Positions 3,540-49,197 of a stretch of DNA of 64,000 nucleotides are shown here, one piece after another. The notes beneath the pieces were generated by a model. It was not told where the DNA came from, made no database searches, and was given only the letters and a program-made list of their open reading frames with translations. How positions within the stretch are numbered: the first letter of the stretch is position 1; each line of letters begins with the position of its first letter. This stretch comes from Arbacia lixula (lineage: Eukaryota > Echinodermata > Echinoidea > Arbacioida > Arbaciidae): NCBI GenBank assembly GCA_963669155.1, contig OZ022583.1, forward strand, positions 1,828,025 to 1,892,024. Direction: 5' to 3'. The position numbers were made by a program, and so were the translations under genes.

Positions 3540-6305
3540 TTGAATGTACGCAGTTTAATAGATAAGATTGATGATATACGTTTCTTGCTGAATAAAGTGC
3601 CTTTTGATATTTTATGCCTATCAGAAACATGGTTGCATGAAATGATCGATAATAACAATGTATGTATAGATAATTATGTGTTAGTACGTAATGATAGACC
3701 AGGAGTCAAACGTGGAGGTGGAGTTTGTATGTATATTCATAACTCGGTTTCATTTCATTTACGTAAAGATTTTCAATTGAATTCTGTTGAAGCCATTTGG
3801 ATCGAGATTTTACCATCCAAACCTGATAATTATTTAGTTGGATGTGTTTATCGACCCCCTAATGCCGATAAAGATTATTTAAATTGTTTGATAGATGTGC
3901 TCGAAAAGATAAAAGGAGGAGATAACGACTTAGTTTTATTAGGTGATTTGAATTATGATTATAAGTCTGGTGTTAACGTTCAAAATCCTATTCATCTGAT
4001 TGAAAACTTATTCTCATTAACACAAATAGTTTCCCAACCAACCAGGGTTACTGCTAATTCAACAAAATGCTTGGATCATATTTTAACTTCACTTCCAGAA
4101 AAGCATTCTTTATGTGATGTTGCTAAAATATCTATTAGTGATCATTATCTAATTTATACTTGTATACACTGTAAAACTATGGGTAAGAATAAACATAAAG
4201 TTGTAACTTTTCGTGATTTCAAACGATTCAATGAAAAAGATTTTTTGCAAAACTTGCATGCCGCCTTTTCTAATATTTGTAATGATCTTGAATTATGTGA
4301 TACTTTAGATGAGAAATGGACAATATGGAAATCGACTTTTTTAACTGTATGTAATAAGCATGCTCCATTGACTTCTCGGAGATTAAAACAGAGATGTTGT
4401 CCCTGGATCACTACTGACATTGTGAAGTTAATTTATGAAAGAGATTATTTAAAGGATAAAAGTAAAAATCGTCCAGATTTGCTTAAAGATTACAGAAAAG
4501 TTAAAAATTTGATTACTAAACTTAGACGTACGAAAAAAAGGGACTACATGAAAAATGTTTTAAATGTATGCAAAGATAACAGTAAGAAGGTATGGCGTGA
4601 ATTAAATAAAATTTCCGGACGAGTACGACGTGACGATAACGTTCCTGTAGATATGAGTGGTGACATGTTAAATGACTTTTTTGTCAACGTTGGTAGAAAT
4701 GTTCCTATTAATATTCAAAGTACCTCTTATAATTGGAAGTATCCGGACTGTATATATACTTTTAAGTTTGAAGATATATCCCAAAGTAAAGTTTCTGATT
4801 TTTTATTACAGTTCGATTATACTGAAAGTAATATAGATATTTTAGGGATTGATTCAAAACTCTTACGAATTGGGGCTCCAGTACTATCTATTTCACTTTG
4901 CTATTTATACAATGAAAGTTTAATTAATGGTATAGTTCCTGTAGATTGGAAATTAGCGAAGACAACACCCATATATAAAGGCAAAGGTAATAAGAGTGAC
5001 CCTACAAATTATAGACCTATTTCTGTTATGTGTCATATTTCTAAGTTGCTTGAAAAGGAATTAAAAAAACAATTGTTAAATTATCTTCTTAAGAATGACC
5101 TTATTAATATTGATCAATCAGCATTTTTACCAAACCATTCTACTACTACATGTCTACATCGTGCAGTCGATGATTGGTTAGAAGCTTTTAACGAACATGA
5201 ACTTGTAGCTACCTGTTTTCTCGATATATCCAAATGTTTTGATTCAATTGATCACAAATTATTACTTATGAAATTGCAAGGATATGGAATTAGAGAGTCA
5301 GAATTGCTTTGGTTTTCTAATTACTTATCACAAAGATCCCAGAAGGTTTTTTGTCATGGTGAATTATCTAGATCAAGGAATATTATGACAGGGGTGCCCC
5401 AAGGAAGTGTTCTGGGACCAATATTGTTTTTGCTATTTATAAATGATATTTCTGATTCTCTGAAATCATGTTCTTGTAATATATTCGCTGATGATGTTGT
5501 TATCTATTACGCACACAAGGACATAAATATTGTTAAAACCGTACTTCAAAATGATTTAGATTTATTAGCTAATTGGTATACAAATAACAAGTTACGTATC
5601 AATATTGACAAAACAAAGGTAATGTTACTTAGTGCTACTTCAACTCATCATCTAAATATATCTATAGGCAAGGATGAAATTGAACAAGTTGACCATGTTC
5701 GATATTTAGGAATTGACATTGATAATCATCTTAATTGGAATGTTTATGTTCAGAATCTTACCAAATCTATTGCTAAAAAGATTTTCTCACTACGCAAAAT
5801 GAGTCAATACCTTGATTTCAACTCCTTAAACCTTATGTATAAAACTATTATTCAGCCTTGTTTTGATTATTCTTGTTCCGTATGGGGGAATTGTTCTTCA
5901 AAAAACAAAGAAATCTTAATGCGTCTACAAAAGAGAGCAGCACGTATCGTTACTTGTAATTATGACTATGAAAATTCAAATGGTTTAGATATTTTTCGAT
6001 CTTTAAAATGGAAAACAGTTGAAGAACGAAGGGATTATTTTCTTGCAACAATTATGTTTAAATGTATACATGGTCTGGCACCTATTCGTCTGTGCAATAG
6101 TATTGACATGCTTTTTGAAAGACATAGATTTAATACCAGAGCAGCTGATACCTTAAATGTTGTAATACCGAAACCAAATTTAGAATCCTATAAGAACAGT
6201 TTCAGATATGCAGGAGGTAAAAGGTGGAATGCGTTACCAGATGCAATGAAAAACTCAAGTTCTCTTCAATCTTTCAAAAGCATGTATAAGAAAATGTTCT
6301 TTTAA
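3540..6305 (+). CDS. LINE ORF2: AP-like endonuclease plus reverse transcriptase
   Basis: A 921-codon uninterrupted frame. Residues 1-240 form an exonuclease-endonuclease-phosphatase fold: LNVRSL at the start, SETWL, YRPPNAD, GDLNYD near 135 and SDH near 201 are its usual metal-binding and catalytic blocks. Residues about 480-750 are reverse transcriptase: YRPISV, LDISKCFDSIDH, GVPQGSVLGP near 620 and the catalytic FADD near 648. The C-terminal 170 residues include a region typical of this LINE group. The first codon given is TTG. The frame is open about 85 bases further upstream with no ATG, so the true start is unknown. The protein would nick DNA and prime reverse transcription of its own RNA. 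All key residues I looked for are present. Confidence 0.9.
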   Translation: MNVRSLIDKIDDIRFLLNKVPFDILCLSETWLHEMIDNNNVCIDNYVLVRNDRPGVKRGGGVCMYIHNSVSFHLRKDFQLNSVEAIWIEILPSKPDNYLVGCVYRPPNADKDYLNCLIDVLEKIKGGDNDLVLLGDLNYDYKSGVNVQNPIHLIENLFSLTQIVSQPTRVTANSTKCLDHILTSLPEKHSLCDVAKISISDHYLIYTCIHCKTMGKNKHKVVTFRDFKRFNEKDFLQNLHAAFSNICNDLELCDTLDEKWTIWKSTFLTVCNKHAPLTSRRLKQRCCPWITTDIVKLIYERDYLKDKSKNRPDLLKDYRKVKNLITKLRRTKKRDYMKNVLNVCKDNSKKVWRELNKISGRVRRDDNVPVDMSGDMLNDFFVNVGRNVPINIQSTSYNWKYPDCIYTFKFEDISQSKVSDFLLQFDYTESNIDILGIDSKLLRIGAPVLSISLCYLYNESLINGIVPVDWKLAKTTPIYKGKGNKSDPTNYRPISVMCHISKLLEKELKKQLLNYLLKNDLINIDQSAFLPNHSTTTCLHRAVDDWLEAFNEHELVATCFLDISKCFDSIDHKLLLMKLQGYGIRESELLWFSNYLSQRSQKVFCHGELSRSRNIMTGVPQGSVLGPILFLLFINDISDSLKSCSCNIFADDVVIYYAHKDINIVKTVLQNDLDLLANWYTNNKLRINIDKTKVMLLSATSTHHLNISIGKDEIEQVDHVRYLGIDIDNHLNWNVYVQNLTKSIAKKIFSLRKMSQYLDFNSLNLMYKTIIQPCFDYSCSVWGNCSSKNKEILMRLQKRAARIVTCNYDYENSNGLDIFRSLKWKTVEERRDYFLATIMFKCIHGLAPIRLCNSIDMLFERHRFNTRAADTLNVVIPKPNLESYKNSFRYAGGKRWNALPDAMKNSSSLQSFKSMYKKMFF

Positions 6306-12274: not shown

Positions 12275-12935
12275 ATTGGGAGTGACAGAAAAGGTTCCAC
12301 CTGAGGTATCAGGATTTGACTCCCATTTCCATCCTGACAGGCTAAATGAACTATCTTCAGGTGTCCAGGATGTGAGCAAATCGATGTTCCCAGGCCGTGA
12401 ACCGGACCACTATCTTCCCATAACTGGCGGGGTTCTTAATTAATGTGACCCTTTGAACTTCTCCCATCCAGAATTTGAAGAACAGGTTCTGGGCCGAATA
12501 GTTGATTCTAATTGGAAATTGGCCATCGAAATCCATCCGAAACAGGCGGTGGATTACATGCAAAGCCAATGGGAGTGCTTCCTAAAGCTCCTGTCCAATC
12601 CCCGGGTGTCGGCCATCAGTGAAGTTGGTTTCAATTTCACGGTAAAAAAACACCTTTGGCGACACCAAGAGGAGCTCATGGACTGGATCCTATCTCTAGG
12701 GACCCTAGGGAGCATCTTAGTGATGCACTCGCGAGGGGCTGATGACGACAAGTACAGTAAGGTCGTAAACCGACTGGCATTGCGACGTCTAAAGAGGAAG
12801 TGCCTCCCCCACCAACGGGTGCACTTGCACTGCTTTAGCAGTGACGTCGGTATGGTCCATGCCTGGCACGAAGCTTTTCCTCACTGCTACTTTGGTATCA
12901 CGGGTAAGGTCCGTTCGTTCAACGAGGAAAAATAA
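12275..12935 (+). pseudogene. TatD-family metal-dependent hydrolase, one in-frame stop
   Basis: One frame, broken only by TAA at 12441-12443, carries the TatD signatures in order. GFDSHFHPDR is the first metal-binding HxH. LAIEIHPKQA corresponds to the GxHP strand. SAISEVGFNF has the usual metal-binding Glu. VMHSRG is followed by VHLHCFSSD (the HCFSG block) and YFGITGKV. The final Asp-containing block (usually ET/TD-SPY) is missing because the frame ends in a junction with the next hAT copy. TatD proteins are 3'-5' exonucleases acting on DNA or RNA. This copy is truncated and stopped. Its N-terminal part is in a different frame from the preceding Myb/SANT block. Confidence 0.8.
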
Positions 12936-17057: not shown

Positions 17058-18660
17058 ATGTTGTGGATACGGCCTGGCCGTTTTCCGTTCAAATCCTCCA
17101 TTTTGCAATATGACATTTCAGTACGGAAGTTTGACAATATGAAGGACAGCTTGGTTGTGCGTGACGGTCTTCTCTGCGGGGTGAAGAAATTTGCACAAGA
17201 TTCTAGTATCGAACAGGTTATCGTTCCCCAGTGCCTGGTCCCAGAGGTTCTGTCATTGTTGCATGGCTCTCCATTCGCGAGCCATTTTGGAGCGAAAAAG
17301 ACGATACAGAAAGCAGAGAAGCTCTGCTACTGGCATGGAATGCACAGGGATATCAAAGATTTCTGTCTCAGGTGAGCCATGCCAGGCTCGGCGAAAACCT
17401 GTCCCCGCCCTCTGCGCCCCCTCCAAACCCTTCACTGCATTTGGCCCTTTTGAGCGAATCGTGGCTGACATCACTACACTCCCTCTCACGCCTGACGGCT
17501 ATCGTTATGTTCTTGTAGTGATGGACTATTTCTCGAAATATGTTAATTTGTACCCCCTCAAAGACCAGACAGCCCTCTCAGTCGCTGACTGCCTTTTTGA
17601 CAAGTTTGTCAGGCAGCACGGCATCCCGGAATCGATCCACTCTGACCAGGGCCGCCAATTTGAATCCCAAGTTTTCGAGGATCTGTGTGAGAAGCTCGGA
17701 ATCAAAGAGACTCGCACTACACCCTATCATCCTCAGTTGGATTGCATGGTTGAACGCTATAATCGAACACTAAAACAAGAGTTAGGTAAACGCCTCCATG
17801 ATGCGGGACCTCAATGGGACCGGATTTTGGGCCAGGTAGAATTGGCGTACAACGCTACTCCTCACTCATCCACTGGCTACACGCCATTCTTTCTCATCCA
17901 TGGCCGTGATGCCCGTCTCCCCTTGTCTGTGCTCTGTGATGCAAACGTCTCCCTATCCCCATCCCCACCCAGCTACGATGATTACGCCGCTGACCTACTT
18001 GCCCGCGTCGACTACGCGTTCGAGCGAGCATCCGAACACGCTGTATCGGCCCGTGCTTCACAAAAGCGCAACTTTGGTGCCCATTCACGCTTTACGCCGC
18101 ACAAGGTGGACTATTTAGTCTACGTCACAGACCCCGCGCATTCCCATAGCAAACTGTCAACGCACTGGATCGGACCTGAAGTATAAATGGTATTCGAATA
18201 TGTAGCGTCGCCTGGAAATACCCGGTGGGCAATAAAACACCACCAAATACAAACAGATAGCTCCCCGTTCACCTCAATCAAATGGGCATTACGCACGGCG
18301 CGCGTGCGCCACCTCCCCCCAAATTACCCTCATGATCGATGCCGAGTAAAACCAGTTGGAGTTCAAGTGCCAGACAAGCAAGGTCATTTTCTACGACAGG
18401 TCTCCGGACGGACTGCTGCACTGCTATACAGGACGGCAAATAAGTAAGTGCCTGCCATTTGCACTTAATAACTACATTAATGGCGCTGCAATACATTAGA
18501 CCGTACCGGGTGGCAGAGGTTGACACAAAGGGTATTGTGTACCACCTTGTTGACCCTGCTAAACCAAATGCGCCGCGGAAAGTCATCCACTACAACCGCT
18601 TGAAGCCCTACATTTCACCTCCTCTACCCATGCCCACCCCTTCTCCCATATATATATGTT
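17058..18660 (+). pseudogene. Gypsy-type integrase, frameshifted and interrupted
   Basis: The HHCC zinc-binding region is at about 17240-17400: LHGSPFASHFG, then CYWHGMHRDIKDFC and CEPCQARR. There is one frame change near 17370. The catalytic core is at about 17440-17800: ERIVADITTLP (first Asp), SDQGRQFES (second Asp) and VERYNRTLKQELG (Glu region). A C-terminal DNA-binding region carries VDYLVYVTDP and WIGP. Its last part (YRVAEVDTKGIVYHL through VIHYNRLKPY) appears only after 18500 because of an inserted element. It is a pol remnant without the upstream reverse transcriptase. Confidence 0.85.
18177..18498. mobile_element. 322-bp insertion inside the integrase
   Basis: The integrase frame is interrupted after WIGP and resumes at YRVAEV. 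The interrupting segment is flanked by the 4-bp direct repeat GACC (18173-18176 and 18499-18502), as expected for a target-site duplication. It starts TGAAGTATAAATGG, ends AATACATTA and contains AATAAAA. It could be a solo LTR or a small DNA element. I cannot name the family. Confidence 0.6.
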
Positions 18661-19890: not shown

Positions 19891-20183
19891 AATAGGTCTC
19901 AGAGAGAAAGAAGGGATGGCCTTGTTCGCCTTTATTTTGAGCTAGGGTTTTTTCAAAAAGAATTCTGTACTTCCTGTGAGCAAAACATTGTATTATCATT
20001 TCTTGTAGGCATTTACATCGGATTTTGAAGAAACTCAAGTTGATTAAACTTTCTAATATTCTAATATTCTAGACGTAGCCATTTTCATTTTGGACAAGTT
20101 AGTCATCTGCCCAGTTGCATGGATATTGATGGAAAACACATGCATTTGATAACACCTTTTATTTTCTTCAGACATTTATGTTA

Positions 20184-20610
20184 TAAATGGCACGTTTGCC
20201 TAGACTATTATTAACATGGTGACATGTAGCTCGCATGCCGGACGAACGTCTTCCAAAGAAACTACTGTTTGGCGCTCTCATGGAGGCCCAAAGAAGCGCT
20301 TCAAAGACACACTAAAGGCAACACTTACGTCTATTAACATCAACCATGACACATGGGAACAGAAAGCCCAAGACAGAGGAGCATGGCGAACATCTGTACA
20401 TAAGGGTGCTGAAGCATGTGAGGCCAATAGGACCATAGTGGCAGTAGCCCGCAGGCAGGCCAGAAAGGCAAGGACGGCCAACCCTGTAGCAACAGCCAAT
20501 CTTCCCTGTCCACACTGCCAGAGACTATTTAGGGCATAGATTGGTCTGACTAGCCATCTGCAGACCCATCAAGCTAATGAGTAAACCCCAGGATGATTAG
20601 ATGGTCCTTG
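20184..20610 (+). pseudogene. C-terminal end of a non-LTR retrotransposon polyprotein
   Basis: Pieces read DERLPKKLLFGALMEAQRS, then in another frame GGPKKRFKDTLKATL, HDTWEQKAQDRGAWR and a terminal finger CPHCQRLFRA followed after a TAG by IGLTSHLQTHQ. This GGxKKRxKDxLK...WE..A.DR..WR...C-x2-C...H-x3-H order is the conserved tail of one group of animal LINE endonuclease-reverse transcriptases. A frameshift near 20285 and the stop at about 20537 make it dead. Confidence 0.75.
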
Positions 20611-20731
20611 TCGCATCGACGGACAAACAAGAAGATTAACATGGTATCTTTCAACACGAATATGACAAAAATGGAAACCATGGAAGAAAATCAATGAATT
20701 GATTAACACAAGAAAATGAGAGATTGATATC

Positions 20732-21033
20732 ACAGCAATCTTGATGAAAATGATGTGTTACACATCAAGCCATGGAAAAATCAACTTTTTAAACAATCCT
20801 TCGCCCCATATTTTAAAAAAAATTTCATTATTTCAACCTGATATTTTATCAATTATTACAGAGTTTCGTGAGAAAGGCTATCAATTTGTCTGAAAATTCC
20901 AGTCCGGCGTCGATACACGAGATGACACTGATATCTGACTTAGCATTCAATTCGAGAAAGGGTTAAGCATCATTAATACTAACATGAGTTCTAAGTGAGA
21001 TGTCACTGGCATTCTAATGCAGAAACAGGCTCC
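20732..21033 (+). repeat. Left copy of an inverted repeat pair flanking ABHD11
   Basis: This segment is the reverse complement, with mismatches, of 27363-27667. Shared anchors are TGATGAAAATGATG at the left, GAAAGGCTATCAATTTGTCT in the middle and GCATTCTAATGCAGAAACAG at the right. Similarity stops at both ends, so these look like two copies of one dispersed element in opposite orientation. Confidence 0.85.
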
Positions 21034-21683
21034 TATTTGCAATGACTGATTAACTTGCAGCCGTGGCTGTGGCGCGACACTTCATACGTAATACTGACAT
21101 TACTTACGTACGTAATAAATACTGTGAACATAATAATACTGCTCATGTACATAAGTTCAAGTTTCAAGTTGAAGTTCAAGTTATTCAAATGTGTTGATAA
21201 TTTGTTCCACTTCTATTAGTTCAAAGTGATGCATTCAATCAGAGGTGTTCCAACAGATATTTTGTTTCTATTTCACTCTTGGAAAGACAAAATTATTAGG
21301 GTGTAGCCAAATAAACATTCACAATTTCAACTTTCTTCAAATACTACGAATAAATATCAGTGAAAATTGACTCCAATCTTCACCAGCAGTACAATAGAAT
21401 TGCATTTTGCACGGCTCACGAAATACATAACCAGTAATATCACAACCAACCTAATCACAACACAACAATTTTCAATTATTCATTTCTGTAGTACCATGTA
21501 ACGCAGCACTTACTAATAGATATGTTAGCAGTGCATTTACTTGAAAGATGATCAGCTCAGCTGCTAATCAAACAAATAAATACTCTGCAGTTTGGCATAA
21601 AAATCTATGAATATAAATATATATCTTTGAAGAACTTTGTGCAATACAGAAGAAACACACACTTGGTACAGTATACACTAACA
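21034..21683. other. Downstream flank of ABHD11
   Basis: AT-rich and without recognised coding sequence. It would hold the ABHD11 3' UTR on the minus strand. A TTTATT (AATAAA on the minus strand) candidate lies near 21578-21583, but I cannot choose among several weak poly(A) signals. Confidence 0.4.
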
Positions 21684-24600
21684 TTACGAGCCCTCTTGCA
21701 GAAAGGGTAGGACGACCCCAAGAAAGTCTGCCGGCTTCTCGGAATGAACCCAGTGACCGGCACCCTCTATGAACGAGAAGGCAGCATTCGGGAAGAGTTG
21801 GCTGAGCTCAGGAATGTCCTCGTCACTGGAGATGGAGAGGAAGTGAAAGAAGAGTCTATTGAAAGGTTGGGATTGAGCCCCATCCTTCTCTTTCTATACA
21901 ACCCCCTTGCTCCATCTCACATTCCTCACCTCATCCTTCTCTTTCTATACAACCCCCTTGCTCCATCTAACAGTCCTCACCCCATCCTTCTCTTTCTATA
22001 CAACCCCCTTGCTCCATCTAACAGTCCTCATCCCATCCTTCTCTTTCTATACAACCCCCTTGCTCCATCTAACAGTCCTCACCCCATCCTCCTCTTTCTA
22101 TACAACCCCCTTGATCCATCTATCAGTCCTCATCCCATCCTCCTCTTTCTATACAACCCCCTTGCTCCATCTCACAGTCATCACCCCATCCTTCTCTTTC
22201 TATACAACCCCCTTGCTCCATCTAACAGTCTTCACCCCATCCTCCTCTTTCTATACAACCCCCTTGCTCCATCAAACAGTCCTCACCCCATCCTTCTCTT
22301 TCTATACAACCCCCTTGCTCCATCTAACAGTCCTCATCCCATCCTCCTCTTTCTATACAACCCCCTTGCTCCATCTAACAGTCCTCATCCCATCCTTCTC
22401 TTTCTATACAACCCCCTTGCTCCATCTAACAGTCCTCACCCCATCCTCCTCTTTCTATACAACCCCCTTGCTCCATCTAACAGTCTTCACCCCATCCTTC
22501 TCTTTCTATACAACCCCCTTCACTCCATCTCACAGTCCTCACCCCTTCCTTCTCTTTCTATACAACCCCCTTGATCCATCTATCAGTCCTCACCCCATCC
22601 TCCTCTTTCTATACAACCCCCTTGCTCCATCAAACAGTCCTCACCCCTTCCTTCTCTTTCTATACAACCCCCTTGATCCATCTAACAGTCCTCACCCCAT
22701 CCTCCTCTTTCTATACAACCCCCTTGCTCCATCTAACAGTCCTCACCCCTTCCTTCTCTTTCTATACAACCCCCTTGATCCATCTAACAGTCCTCACCCC
22801 ATCCTTCTCTTTCTATACAACTCCCTTGCTCCATCTAACAGTCCTCACCCCATCCTCCTCTTTCTATACAACCCCTTCACTCCATCTAACAGTCCTTACC
22901 CCATCCTCCTCTTTCTATACAACTCCCTTGCTCCATCTCACAGTCATCACCCCATCCTTCTCTTTCTATACAACCCCCTTGCTCCATCAAACAGTCCTCA
23001 CCCCTTCCTTCTCTTTCTATACAACCCCCTTGATCAATCTAACAGTCCTCACCCCATCCTCCTCTTTCTATACAACCCCTTCACTCCATCTAACAGTCCT
23101 TACCCCATCCTCCTCTTTCTATACAACCCCCTTGCTCCATCTCACAGTCATCACCCCATCCTTCTCTTTCTATACAACCCCCTTGCTCCATCTATCAGTC
23201 CTCACCCCATCCTTCTCTTTCTATACAACCCCCTTGCTCCATCTAACAGTCCTCATCCCATCCTCCTCTTTCTATACAACCCCCTTGCTCCATCTAACAG
23301 TCTTCACCCCATCCTCCTCTTTCTATACAACCCCCTTGATCCATCTATCAGTCCTCACCCCATCCTCCTCTTTCTATACAACCCCCTTGCTCCATCTAAC
23401 AGTCCTCATCCCATCCTCCTCTTTCTATACAACCCCCTTGCTCCATCTAACAGTCTTCACCCCATCCTCCTCTTTCTATACAACCCCCTTGCTCCATCTA
23501 ACAGTCCTCATCCCATCCTCCTCTTTCTATACAACCCCCTTGCTCCATCTCACAGTCATCACCCCATCCTTCTCTTTCTATACAACCCCCTTGCTCCATC
23601 TAACAGTCTTCACCCCATCCTTCTCTTTCTATACAACCCCCTTGCTCCATCTAACAGTCTTCACCCCATCCTCCTCTTTCTATACAACCCCCTTGCTCCA
23701 TCTAACAGTCTTCACCCCATCCTCCTCTTTCTATACAACCCCCTTGCTCCATCAAACAGTCCTCACCCCATCCATCTCTTTCTATACAACCCCCTTGCTC
23801 CATCAAACAGTCCTCACCCCATCCATCTCTTTCTATACAACCCCCTTGCTCCATCTCACAGTCCTCAACCAATATAAGGGTGATCCCCCAACAAACATCA
23901 TCTCTCTGTCATACTGAGCTGTCTGGTACATAGAGCTATCTGAGATTTGATGGATTGGCTTCCAGAGTGTCGGGGTTCAGCCTCTAACCTACCCCCCCCC
24001 CCCTCTTTCCCCTCTCACTCGTTCTCTCTACCCCCTTTCCATCCTTCCTACCCCACCACCTCTTTCCTACCACACCTCTCACAGTCCTCATTTTCCCTCT
24101 ACCCCCTCTCCCCAGTGAACCCCATTCCCCTCCCCTCTTCCTATCCTCCTATCCCTAGAAGACCCCCTGCCATTCACTAACAACAGTCCTCACCGAATAT
24201 AAGGAGAGAGTGATCCCCCAACAAACAGAGTCTGTCCGTCGTACTGAGCTCCAGCTGGTATATGGAGCCGTGTAAGATTTGGGGCATTGGCCTCCAGGGC
24301 GTCTAGGTTTAATCTCCACTTCAGACGGTCTCCTTCCTTGGTCAGGTTGGTCAGCAGAAATAATCGCACCCCCACATCCTGGGAACAATAACAAAATAAT
24401 CATTTGTCACTCGTGAAAATTACCTAAATATTACAAGAACATTTGTTATAGCCCCATGCACAATTTGCAATACCTGTTTCTTCATATATATTGAGAAAAA
24501 GATCAATTCGGGCAAAATTCATTGACATTCGACCTTGGTCCAATGTGACCCTTAGTTTTGAAACACATCTGTTGAATAGTTCTCAGGATATTGCACAAAT

Positions 24601-29023: not shown

Positions 29024-46262
<17,239 letters not shown>

Positions 46263-47628
46263 GGGCGCCCTCCATCAAACTCAAAAACATAGTCTCGCCC
46301 CTTTGACCGATTTTACGTTACTATCCGCCTGTTTGTCGTGACTGTCAAAACACTGTACGGACATGAGACTGTTGGATATCGCAGCAGCGTTCACGGTATT
46401 GCAACGCTTCAAGACCGACTGTGGCAGTTTGTTGACCGTGCAAACCAAATGGAGAAAAAAAAAAATGTTGCAAGTCCGGATATCTTTGCGTCCTTGATTT
46501 CATTGATTTAAAAAGAAATATACAGTTACATTACGTTTGTGTTCCTGAGCTATAAATGTGATGGATTAAGTACCCAATTATGGAAAAATATAAAGAAATG
46601 AAGCATTTTGAAGCCATCAGGAGAAGGGGAGTGACCAGTATATGGAGCTGCTTGTGATATGAAACCTGCGACTGATATCTCGGTTGCCATGGACGACGCG
46701 AGCACCCCACCCCTCTCTGAGATGAATGTGTCGCAGCATGGAACAAGCAGCTAGCATTGCATGTTGCCGGGGAAAGTGCTGAAAGCGCTGAAATGCATCG
46801 TGGGACCAAGCGGGGCTGATTATCGTTGGTCACCACAGGCCTGTCAAAGAATAATGATTTTCTCCTTGGTCAATCACCCCTCTCCCTCTTTGTCTGAATT
46901 CTTTTCAATTGGTGCAGGGCAATTACGTTGAGAACGTGTAATAAGTCGAGCTTCTAGTATCTCTCTATGCTGATTCAAGCATGGTTCTTTGCATGTTACT
47001 ATTGATTCATTTCATATATAACATCTGACAAAAGGAAATGCCTCTACATGGTTAGCATGACCATGGCTTGGCTGTAATATCATAGTATTATAGATGAACA
47101 TTCCCTCCATCAAAAGCTTCATGTGGGACTAACACATGGCTTGACGTGCATCTAACAGTGCATTAAAACCAGCTTCATGTACGTAGATTTCTATTTGCTG
47201 GTGAAAGGGTAGAAAACTGTCAGATTGATTCTTTGCAAAATGAATGGCTTGCCAACATGGAAGGAATGGAAATATTTCATTTTCTCATGAATTGTGTGAA
47301 CTGTAATATTGTGTAGTTCTACTATAGTTGGCTATATGGTCAAGCTGCTTTGGTCCTGAGCATGGTTTCTTTTGTGTGTCTTGTATAGAGAGAGAGAGTA
47401 TACTTGTTAACTTCACTGCACCCATACATACATGTAACATCACATTGGTATCACATTGCTCATTGCTCCTGCTTTATTTCCCATTCGAGCCTATTGGTCA
47501 TACATTGTACATATGGTACACACTCAGTTTAACCCATGTTGTAGTACTGCTTTAACAATCAGTGCAATAGGTCTTCCCAATATGTTTGTCATTGCACCAT
47601 TTCATCCTGAAAGCATTTAGTGGGTTTA

Positions 47629-47634
47629 AATAAA
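47629..47634 (+). terminator. Candidate poly(A) signal for the first Rab35 last exon
   Basis: AATAAA lies 1.37 kb after the TGA of exon 6a and about 400 bp before the acceptor of the alternative exon 6b. Using it would give a transcript ending in exon 6a. Other hexamers exist, so this is a candidate only. Confidence 0.4.
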
Positions 47635-48029
47635 CAGACACTCAGATTAATGGAATATTCACATGAGTATATGGAGAGTCAATGCAGTGCAAGTGAGAAG
47701 TCCCACGCCAACTTAGGAATATTCTCATTACCCACAAGAAGAGTCAAACTTTGGGCATTTAGATTGCCATACACTTTCGTTGCTTGATGAACTCCAGATT
47801 CTGGTGTAGTGTGATTCCACAACTCCAGGAGAAGGAATATTATAATATGTCCTTAATCTGACACATTTCTTAGTAGAGTATACATATATCATTTCAATAT
47901 GGTTTCAAACTTTTCCACTGTTACATGAGTGGTATGCTATGTGCAATGCATGTCAATGTACATGTATGGTATCAGATGTTAATGAAGAAATAGGAATCGA
48001 GTTACGACTTCTCTAATAACCTCTGGCAG

Positions 48030-48161
48030 ATGTTCAACGCAATCACAACCCTGGTCCTCGAGCTGAAGAAATCCAACGAATTGGCGCGCACCAACTCACA
48101 GAAAGAGGGCGACACCATCAAGATTAAAGACGGCAAGACGAAAAAGAGCGGCTGTTGCTAA
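48030..48161 (+). CDS. RAB35: Rab35 alternative last exon (6b)
   Basis: After CCTCTGGCAG the frame reads MFNAITTLVLELKKSNELAR, continues with a polar tail and ends KTKKSGCC, TAA. It is in the same phase (0) as exon 6a and starts with the same MFNxIT block, so exon 5 (ending NINVEE at 43168) can join either. The spliced protein would be 202 residues with a -CC prenylation motif, closer to the vertebrate Rab35 end than the -CCGK of exon 6a. Both exons are intact, and most of their divergence is in the hypervariable tail. This points to an old exon duplication kept as mutually exclusive terminal exons. Nothing suggests decay. Confidence 0.9.
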   Translation: MFNAITTLVLELKKSNELARTNSQKEGDTIKIKDGKTKKSGCC

Positions 48162-48680
48162 TCGTGGTTGTTTCCCAGCGATGTAGACATAAACCGTGAA
48201 GTGTGTGTGTGTGCATCGATGTCGATCAGCCTTTGAGGGTTTCTTTTTTGTGGAAGCCAGTCTGATAACCTTTTGATTATTTTGATTTCTAGTTAACTCT
48301 TCTTCATTTGCTTCCATTGTTAAGTGATTAACAATTTAGAAATTATCACAAGATGAAATCATTCTGCCAATTAAACTCTCTCTGTTGGTCTCATAAAAAA
48401 GGTGTTTTGTTAGAAATTTCCCAACATATTCCAAAATTAAAATGTCCATGTCTAGTGTGTAGTACATATATGCACACATTTGTCACTGGCATGTTTCTAA
48501 GTTTAGGAAGACAGAGGTGTATACACTGTGTATCTGTTGTTGCTATATCAGGAAAGCTTCAGGCATGCTGTACAGTGCGCATATGCAACATATTCAAATG
48601 CAAGCACGCTTGCACATGCGTACTGTACAGCATGCCTGTATTTTAATATGTTGGCTAACTTGTCTATTGCTTTGCTTCCT

Positions 48681-48810
48681 GGGGCGTATTCCTGAAACCT
48701 TACTAACTTAGATACTTACTTGTAGTGAGCTCCTAAAGCACATTCATCAACATATGCATTATCAGTAACTACCAGTAACTAGGCTAGTAAGGTTTCATGA
48801 ACATGGCTCC
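48681..48810. mobile_element. MITE with ATTCCTGAAACCTTACTA ends, copy 3
   Basis: GGGGCGTATTCCTGAAACCT and AGGTTTCATGAACATGGCTC are terminal inverted repeats around 130 bp of non-coding DNA. This is the best preserved of the three family members seen. Confidence 0.75.
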
Positions 48811-48989
48811 TGGTGACTTAATTTAGAAGGGAACAAAGGTTATTGTTTATGTAAAACACATTTGATACTGCAGCATACCCAAGAGAGATTATTTTCTTTA
48901 AAAAATGGAAGACATGGTACAAGAGTCATGATGGCAAAATCAGCCGTCAGGTCGATGTGTGCATGTTAAATCTTGACAGTCTTGAACTT

Positions 48990-49197
48990 AGTCTTGCCTT
49001 CAGGCTGTTAGGCATTTCTGAACCAAACTATTCAATAAAGGAGTCTGGCTACATTAGACTAATCATTCTCAAGTTCTTATCCAGGTGTCCCCTGAGAAAA
49101 TGGGAGAATGATGCAGTGACTAAAAGTAGTCTTAAAGTACTAGACTCTATTTATCTGTTGGGATCAGAAATGTCCTAAAGCCCGGAGACCAGCCTAT
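48990..49197. mobile_element. MITE-like element, copy 2
   Basis: Relative of 33591-33830. It starts near TGCCTTCAGGCTGTTAGGC and ends AGACCAGCCTATG. Confidence 0.5.

Follow-up and report, generated by a model that had tools for sequence, protein, structure and literature searches.

Does the Rab35 gene of the sea urchin Arbacia lixula end in two alternative last exons, each supplying a different membrane-targeting tail to the same GTPase core? The question arises from a window of 64,000 nucleotides (the whole stretch of DNA analysed here), in which a sequence-only reading had placed two intact, phase-matched last exons at 46125-46262 and 48030-48161. The spliced readings confirmed the coordinates, phase and stop codons of both exons, which are termed A and B in the following list:

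29024 to 29075, plus strand: Rab35 coding exon 1, ending in phase 1
36499 to 36549, plus strand: Rab35 exon 2
38216 to 38339, plus strand: Rab35 exon 3
40101 to 40225, plus strand: Rab35 exon 4
43044 to 43168, plus strand: Rab35 exon 5, the last shared exon, with donor GAG/gtgggt in phase 0
46125 to 46262, plus strand: alternative last exon A, with a CIM-like VNL and an XCCXX-type cysteine motif
48030 to 48161, plus strand: alternative last exon B, reading MFNAITTLVLELKKSNELARTNSQKEGDTIKIKDGKTKKSGCC followed by a stop, with a CIM-like IKI and an XXXCC motif

All five shared exons carry a GT donor, exons 2 to 5 are preceded by an AG acceptor, and exons A and B each start with ATG and join exon 5 in phase 0. 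Spliced to A the gene reads as 204 residues and spliced to B as 202, each reading being open with a single terminal stop and covered by the Pfam Ras profile over positions 1-160 of 162. In a search of solved structures, the best matches were three distinct Rab35 sequences (329 to 335 bits, E 7e-98 or better), with Rab1 next after Rab35 at 231 to 232 bits for both isoforms. With Rab35 structures as top matches and Rab1 well below, the gene is Rab35 by sequence similarity, as had been called before.

The shared part of the protein was also compared with the genome (607 Mb in 590 contigs), which returned 55 matches at E <= 0.001 from 131 scored candidates. Among these 55, identities of 87 to 95% occur only in three exons of this Rab35 gene, and the next-best match reaches 81% over 26 residues. 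A duplicate Rab35 gene or a processed copy was considered as the source of exon B and rejected, as high identity (87% or more) is confined to the three exons of this gene and the genome search found no further copy of a tail. A 94-bp sequence lies about twice in a row (1.9 copies, 87% match) at 42863-43036 of the window, directly 5' of exon 5, and ends at the acceptor region of that exon.

The best explanation of the arrangement is a single Rab35 gene whose two last exons exclude each other and which probably encodes two prenylated proteins with different tails. The donor at 43168 would join exon A, in which case the message would end at the stop of A and be polyadenylated upstream of B; alternatively, A would be skipped and the same donor would join exon B. 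The two proteins would be identical in the GTPase domain as far as the close of helix alpha-5, and each tail would retain the elements required by REP and Rab geranylgeranyl transferase, a CIM and two cysteines. Beyond this, the hypervariable tails would diverge, A being more basic with KCCGK and B less basic with SGCC. Both isoforms are presumably spliced in vivo.

Comparison of the two tails offers a greater level of detail. The sequence MFNxITxLVL, the end of helix alpha-5, is kept in both, and the C-terminal ends (KCCGK in A, SGCC in B) each present a Rab-type double cysteine. The common MFNxIT start and the different tails with different cysteine motifs, both reported earlier, recur in the assembled readings. 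A hydrophobic-x-hydrophobic motif precedes the cysteines in each tail, VNL 10 residues upstream in A and IKI 9 residues upstream in B; the pattern is loose, and further upstream it also fits LVL in A and, in B, both LVL and LEL. The CIM is described as a hydrophobic-x-hydrophobic element of the tail, and both XCCXX and XXXCC are among the cysteine contexts listed for Rab GGTase II (PMC3504004, available portion). As each tail holds a CIM-like element together with a listed cysteine context, neither looks broken for REP/GGTase handling, and both isoforms would be expected to be doubly geranylgeranylated.

Apart from these common elements, more than half of the residues differ between the two tails, which are about 40% identical. 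Both are basic, with a net charge over the last 12 residues of + 6 for A and + 3 for B. In mouse macrophage-like cells, changing two basic tail residues of Rab35 to glutamate is reported to shift the protein to internal membranes, replacing four sends it mainly to the Golgi, and exchange of tails between Rab35 and Rab10 also exchanges their localisation (PMC7450177, available portion). According to the same source, the count of basic tail residues decides between plasma-membrane and internal localisation of Rab35. Because this count sets the address in that system, different membrane targeting of A and B is plausible by analogy, with B being less basic yet not acidic. By the same analogy, isoform A would favour the plasma membrane more than isoform B.

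The origin of the two exons can be approached from their resemblance to each other. When exon A or B was searched against the 607-Mb genome at E <= 10, the sole match besides the query itself was the other tail, 1.9 kb away. The E values of this cross-match are 0.374 and 0.886 (with two first-look candidates per search), which by our own arithmetic corresponds to about 1.5e-6 when rescaled to 5 kb on one strand. Aligned globally, A and B share 18 identical residues, and none of 5000 shuffles of B attained their score. A resemblance by chance is very unlikely, because the only other genome match of each tail is its partner 1.9 kb off. That a terminal exon was duplicated and both copies retained, as proposed initially, is strongly supported by sequence. 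No third tail exon was found by a motif scan of both strands of the window.

Exon B might alternatively belong to another transcription unit, or reflect an assembly artefact such as a retained haplotype or a misjoined duplicate. Nothing was found in favour of this. Neither the motif scans nor the genome search for the shared part revealed another GTPase-type exon between A and B. A further copy of A or B turned up on none of the other contigs, and an identity of only about 40% means that A and B are not alleles. We regard both versions of this alternative as extremely improbable.

Several observations bear on the age of the duplication. Identical codons are used at 7 of the 17 shared degenerate residues, where 6.7 would be expected with random codon choice, so that silent sites look saturated, with the proviso that 17 codons measure divergence roughly. 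The surroundings of A and B, outside the stretch common to both regions, match only in scraps of 11 to 42 bases with E 0.36 or worse, and a comparison of the flanks of A and B found no alignment. We also simulated neutral drift from an A-like ancestor, without insertions or deletions, and scored a copy as passing if it kept an open frame, the CC in place and at least 38% identity. Out of 4000 copies, 2 passed at 0.8 changes per site, 1 at 1.0 and none at 1.5; at lower divergence the passing fraction rose to 1.6% (0.5 changes per site) and 8.4% (0.3 changes per site). The simulation tells less if the true divergence is lower, and it is compatible with a recent loss of use. Saturated codons, non-aligning flanks and the rare survival of a frame under drift together make the duplication look old. 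With a divergence of the size indicated by the codons, selection would have acted on A and B during much of their separate history; codon change in a frame that stays open would also lend indirect support to conservation of both exons between species. Across their first 16 residues, each exon matches the Rab35 chain 3tw8 at 11 positions, and the two match each other at 10, which allows a very old split, although 16 residues are far too short to date it.

How the choice between the two exons might be made is suggested by their acceptors, which differ strikingly. The feature concerned is the following:

46075 to 46124, plus strand: acceptor of exon A with its long pyrimidine tract, pyrimidines occupying 51 of the final 60 bases

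At positions -20 to -5, the acceptor of exon A has 16 pyrimidines out of 16, which is matched by 0.2% of the 1699 YAG sites of the window, and its tract score is attained by 2 of 1698 such sites, A itself counted. Exon B has 11 of 16 pyrimidines at these positions, equal to shared exon 4 and matched by 15.6% of the 1699 sites. Over the last 60 nucleotides, B has the fewest pyrimidines of the six acceptors (27 of 60, vs 37 to 45 for shared exons 2 to 5), and its tract score is the lowest possible. The initial description of both acceptors as good needs correction in that they are not equally so: the tract is exceptional in A and poor in B at 27 of 60, with 11 of 16 close in. The exceptional tract of A and the poor one of B indicate that A is probably the default last exon, and that use of B would require A to be repressed or slow. 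As its acceptor is poor, B may be a minor or rarely used exon. PTBP1 and PTBP2 are reported to direct the last-exon choice of CDC42 (PMC6411841, available portion), and a pyrimidine-binding protein acting on Rab35 exon A would be our guess by analogy. The motif TGCATG at 47947, upstream of B, occurs 34 times in the window and is hence uninformative.

The poor pyrimidine tract also raises the prospect of a relic. Exon B (A being the less likely candidate) would then be an old copy, once in use, that is today spliced in rarely if at all and whose frame has stayed open by chance over the short time since its disuse. Exon B, however, retains its open frame, the CIM-like motif and the two terminal cysteines, together with an AG acceptor whose proximal pyrimidines equal those of exon 4 and a downstream AATAAA. 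Its GC3 is still high, at 0.75 compared with 0.52 in the shared exons. Judging by the simulation, these features would probably have been lost under prolonged neutral drift. Taken together, we consider a relic distinctly unlikely, and two functional last exons remain the preferred reading.

If each exon ends its own message, the two isoforms would also differ in their 3'UTRs, for which the relevant features are:

46263 to 47660, plus strand: putative 3'UTR of isoform A, with AATAAA at 47629 (presumed extent)
48162 to 49060, plus strand: putative 3'UTR of isoform B, with AATAAA at 49034 (presumed extent)
48992 to 48998, plus strand: TCTTGCC, a 7-base match to the miR-31 seed in the putative 3'UTR of B, about 35 bases before AATAAA

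Exactly one AATAAA lies between A and B, at 47629, in agreement with what had been noted at the outset, and three lie 3' of B in the region scanned to 49600 (49034, 49254 and 49279). The signal at 47629 and those after B make a separate 3' end possible for each exon. Alternative polyadenylation control, as suggested previously, is possible; splice choice alone would suffice, because any upstream terminal exon needs an AATAAA like the one at 47629. A marked GU-rich downstream element was found at the poly(A) sites of neither A nor B.

Rab35 is a reported validated target of miR-31 in sea urchin, and TCTTGCC is the seed match used in that study (PMC10312921, preprint, available portion). The site at 48992 is the only 7-base match in either putative Rab35 3'UTR; that of A has no 7-base match and one 6-base match (CTTGCC at 47248). 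The genome encodes miR-31, with a precursor at C5:14621198 (locus L037) that matches the mature sequence exactly and scores 60.4 bits to Rfam RF00661, a match that is absent from L038, the locus with a two-mismatch miR-31. The genome also contains an exact match to miR-2011, a microRNA of echinoderms and hemichordates. An Rfam scan of the window itself returned nothing at gathering score. By chance, TCTTGCC would be expected about 0.05 times in about 0.9 kb. Across the window, the 7-base sites number 7 against 7.35 expected, without enrichment, and given the low local expectation but no excess over the window we treat the site at 48992 as a lead, not a finding. Use of an earlier poly(A) signal, for example ATTAAA at 48370, would leave the site out of the message.

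These differences hint at another way in which the locus might work, namely that both isoforms are made, that their tails are equivalent, and that the real difference lies in the 3'UTRs, through mRNA stability, localisation or microRNA control, as is general for alternative last exons. The putative 3'UTRs of A and B are wholly different, the sole 7-base miR-31 match falls in that of B in a genome that holds miR-31, miR-31 reportedly has Rab35 among its validated targets in sea urchin (PMC10312921, preprint, available portion), and mRNA localisation is reported to differ between the last exons of CDC42 (PMC6411841, available portion). The tails themselves speak against equivalence, since they differ in charge and at over half of their positions, and the weight of the microRNA site is reduced by the lack of enrichment in the window (7 vs 7.35) and by the 6-base match in the 3'UTR of A. 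We find equivalence of the tails rather unlikely. This explanation shares its splicing with two last exons encoding different tails, and the chances assigned to the two are not exclusive.

A bolder version of the two-tail reading would make the locus a regulated address switch. Isoform A, with its strong and perhaps PTB-controlled acceptor, would go to the plasma membrane, and isoform B would be more internal and encoded by the sole mRNA with a 7-base miR-31 site, so that control by miR-31 would act mainly there. The split might then be as old as the deuterostomes, given that, over 16 residues, A and B match each other at 10 positions and 3tw8 at 11 each. In its entirety, this switch strikes us as improbable.

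Well-studied small GTPases offer a frame for the two-tail arrangement. As proposed here for Rab35, KRAS is one small GTPase gene with tandem, mutually exclusive last exons (4A and 4B), each comprising the end of the G domain and a full membrane-targeting tail (PMC9882654, available portion). In CDC42, the choice of last exon similarly gives two tails and different 3'UTRs (Cdc42-prenyl and Cdc42-palm), and the isoforms have a different lipid fate and distinct localisation (PMC9868626, PMC6411841, available portions). The Rab35 locus likewise presents one donor and two same-phase last exons, each supplying a complete tail and a stop codon, and as in KRAS these exons are of related sequence (0 of 5000 shuffles, 18 identical residues). 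There are also clear differences. KRAS belongs to the Ras family and uses CaaX motifs, whereas here a Rab carries REP-dependent CC motifs; its exon 4A dates from the jawed vertebrates, with NRAS exon 4 as a possible source, and thus has an origin separate from that of the Rab35 exons. CDC42 is a Rho-family gene whose tails are prenylated or palmitoylated, whereas in Rab35 geranylgeranylation seems likely for both tails, which are set apart by their charge and by where the CC sits.

A survey of all 167 members of the RAS superfamily is reported to single out CDC42 as the only one that, as KRAS does, produces distinct membrane-targeting tails (PMC9882654, preprint, available portion). The same source describes C-terminal alternative splicing also for HRAS, Arl6, TRIM23, Arl8B, Rab8A, Rab15, Rab28 and Rab35. 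As far as that portion goes, splicing alters the C terminus of Rab8A, Rab15, Rab28 and Rab35 without giving two distinct membrane-targeting tails. Since Rab35 stands outside its two-tail genes, a double tail would not be a general feature of Rab35. Splice variants of RAB37 and RAB40C are likewise reported to alter the C terminus, and the available portion of that source does not name RAB35 (PMC9714508). Within the open-licence literature searched, we found neither a Rab gene with two complete tails nor a Rab35 with an alternative last exon. A 1996 paper by Brauers et al. concerns Rab28, going by its title. Automatic genome annotation may already list both isoforms. The arrangement perhaps joins the KRAS/CDC42 kind as the first Rab in it.

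If this is true, a Rab with two tails would represent an independent origin of the KRAS/CDC42 solution. One G domain with two tails at a single locus would, moreover, provide a natural test of the role of the hypervariable tail in membrane identity. Sea urchin embryos are open to injection and imaging, and Rab35 has been tied in them to actin, vesicle traffic and cell division (PMC10312921, preprint, available portion).

As a control, we considered other small GTPase genes of the genome, taking from 149 Pfam Ras matches, which fall on contigs C1 to C22 with few on small contigs, the 45 other loci whose match extends to profile position 144 or beyond. For 20 of the 45, a region of about 10 kb that included the locus and the sequence after it was scanned, and of the other 25 just two short pieces. 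Clear CC-type tails were seen at about 4 of the 20 loci (L016, L017, L021 and L023), and a second raw CC or CXC match at three (L017, L018 and L021). By eye, we take these second matches as noise or repeats, because they are unlike the first tail. Stretches of N interrupt five of the 20 (L022, L026, L027, L033 and L034), and the control has low power and gives no frequency of double tails. A second candidate, on C22, was rejected: L035 (8045600-8046900) and L036 (8022800-8024100) are near-identical Ras-type exons 23 kb apart with no recognisable tail, and each directly follows proline-coding short repeats.

The window holds several further elements away from the Rab35 exons. A 51-bp tandem repeat (39 copies, 93% match) occupies 21878-23867 and contains long open frames with no evidence of coding; this stretch is strongly skewed to C over G, with a skew of -0.48 for 20001-24000. 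An open frame of 921 residues at 3540-6305 is endonuclease- and reverse-transcriptase-like, and by eye we take it to belong to a LINE. At 12453-12935, an open frame resembling a TatD-type DNase by eye lies beside BED/hAT-like transposase fragments (10.6-13.5 kb), and was possibly captured by a transposon. Finally, an integrase-like open frame at 17191-18186 appears, by eye, to be part of a Ty3-type element.
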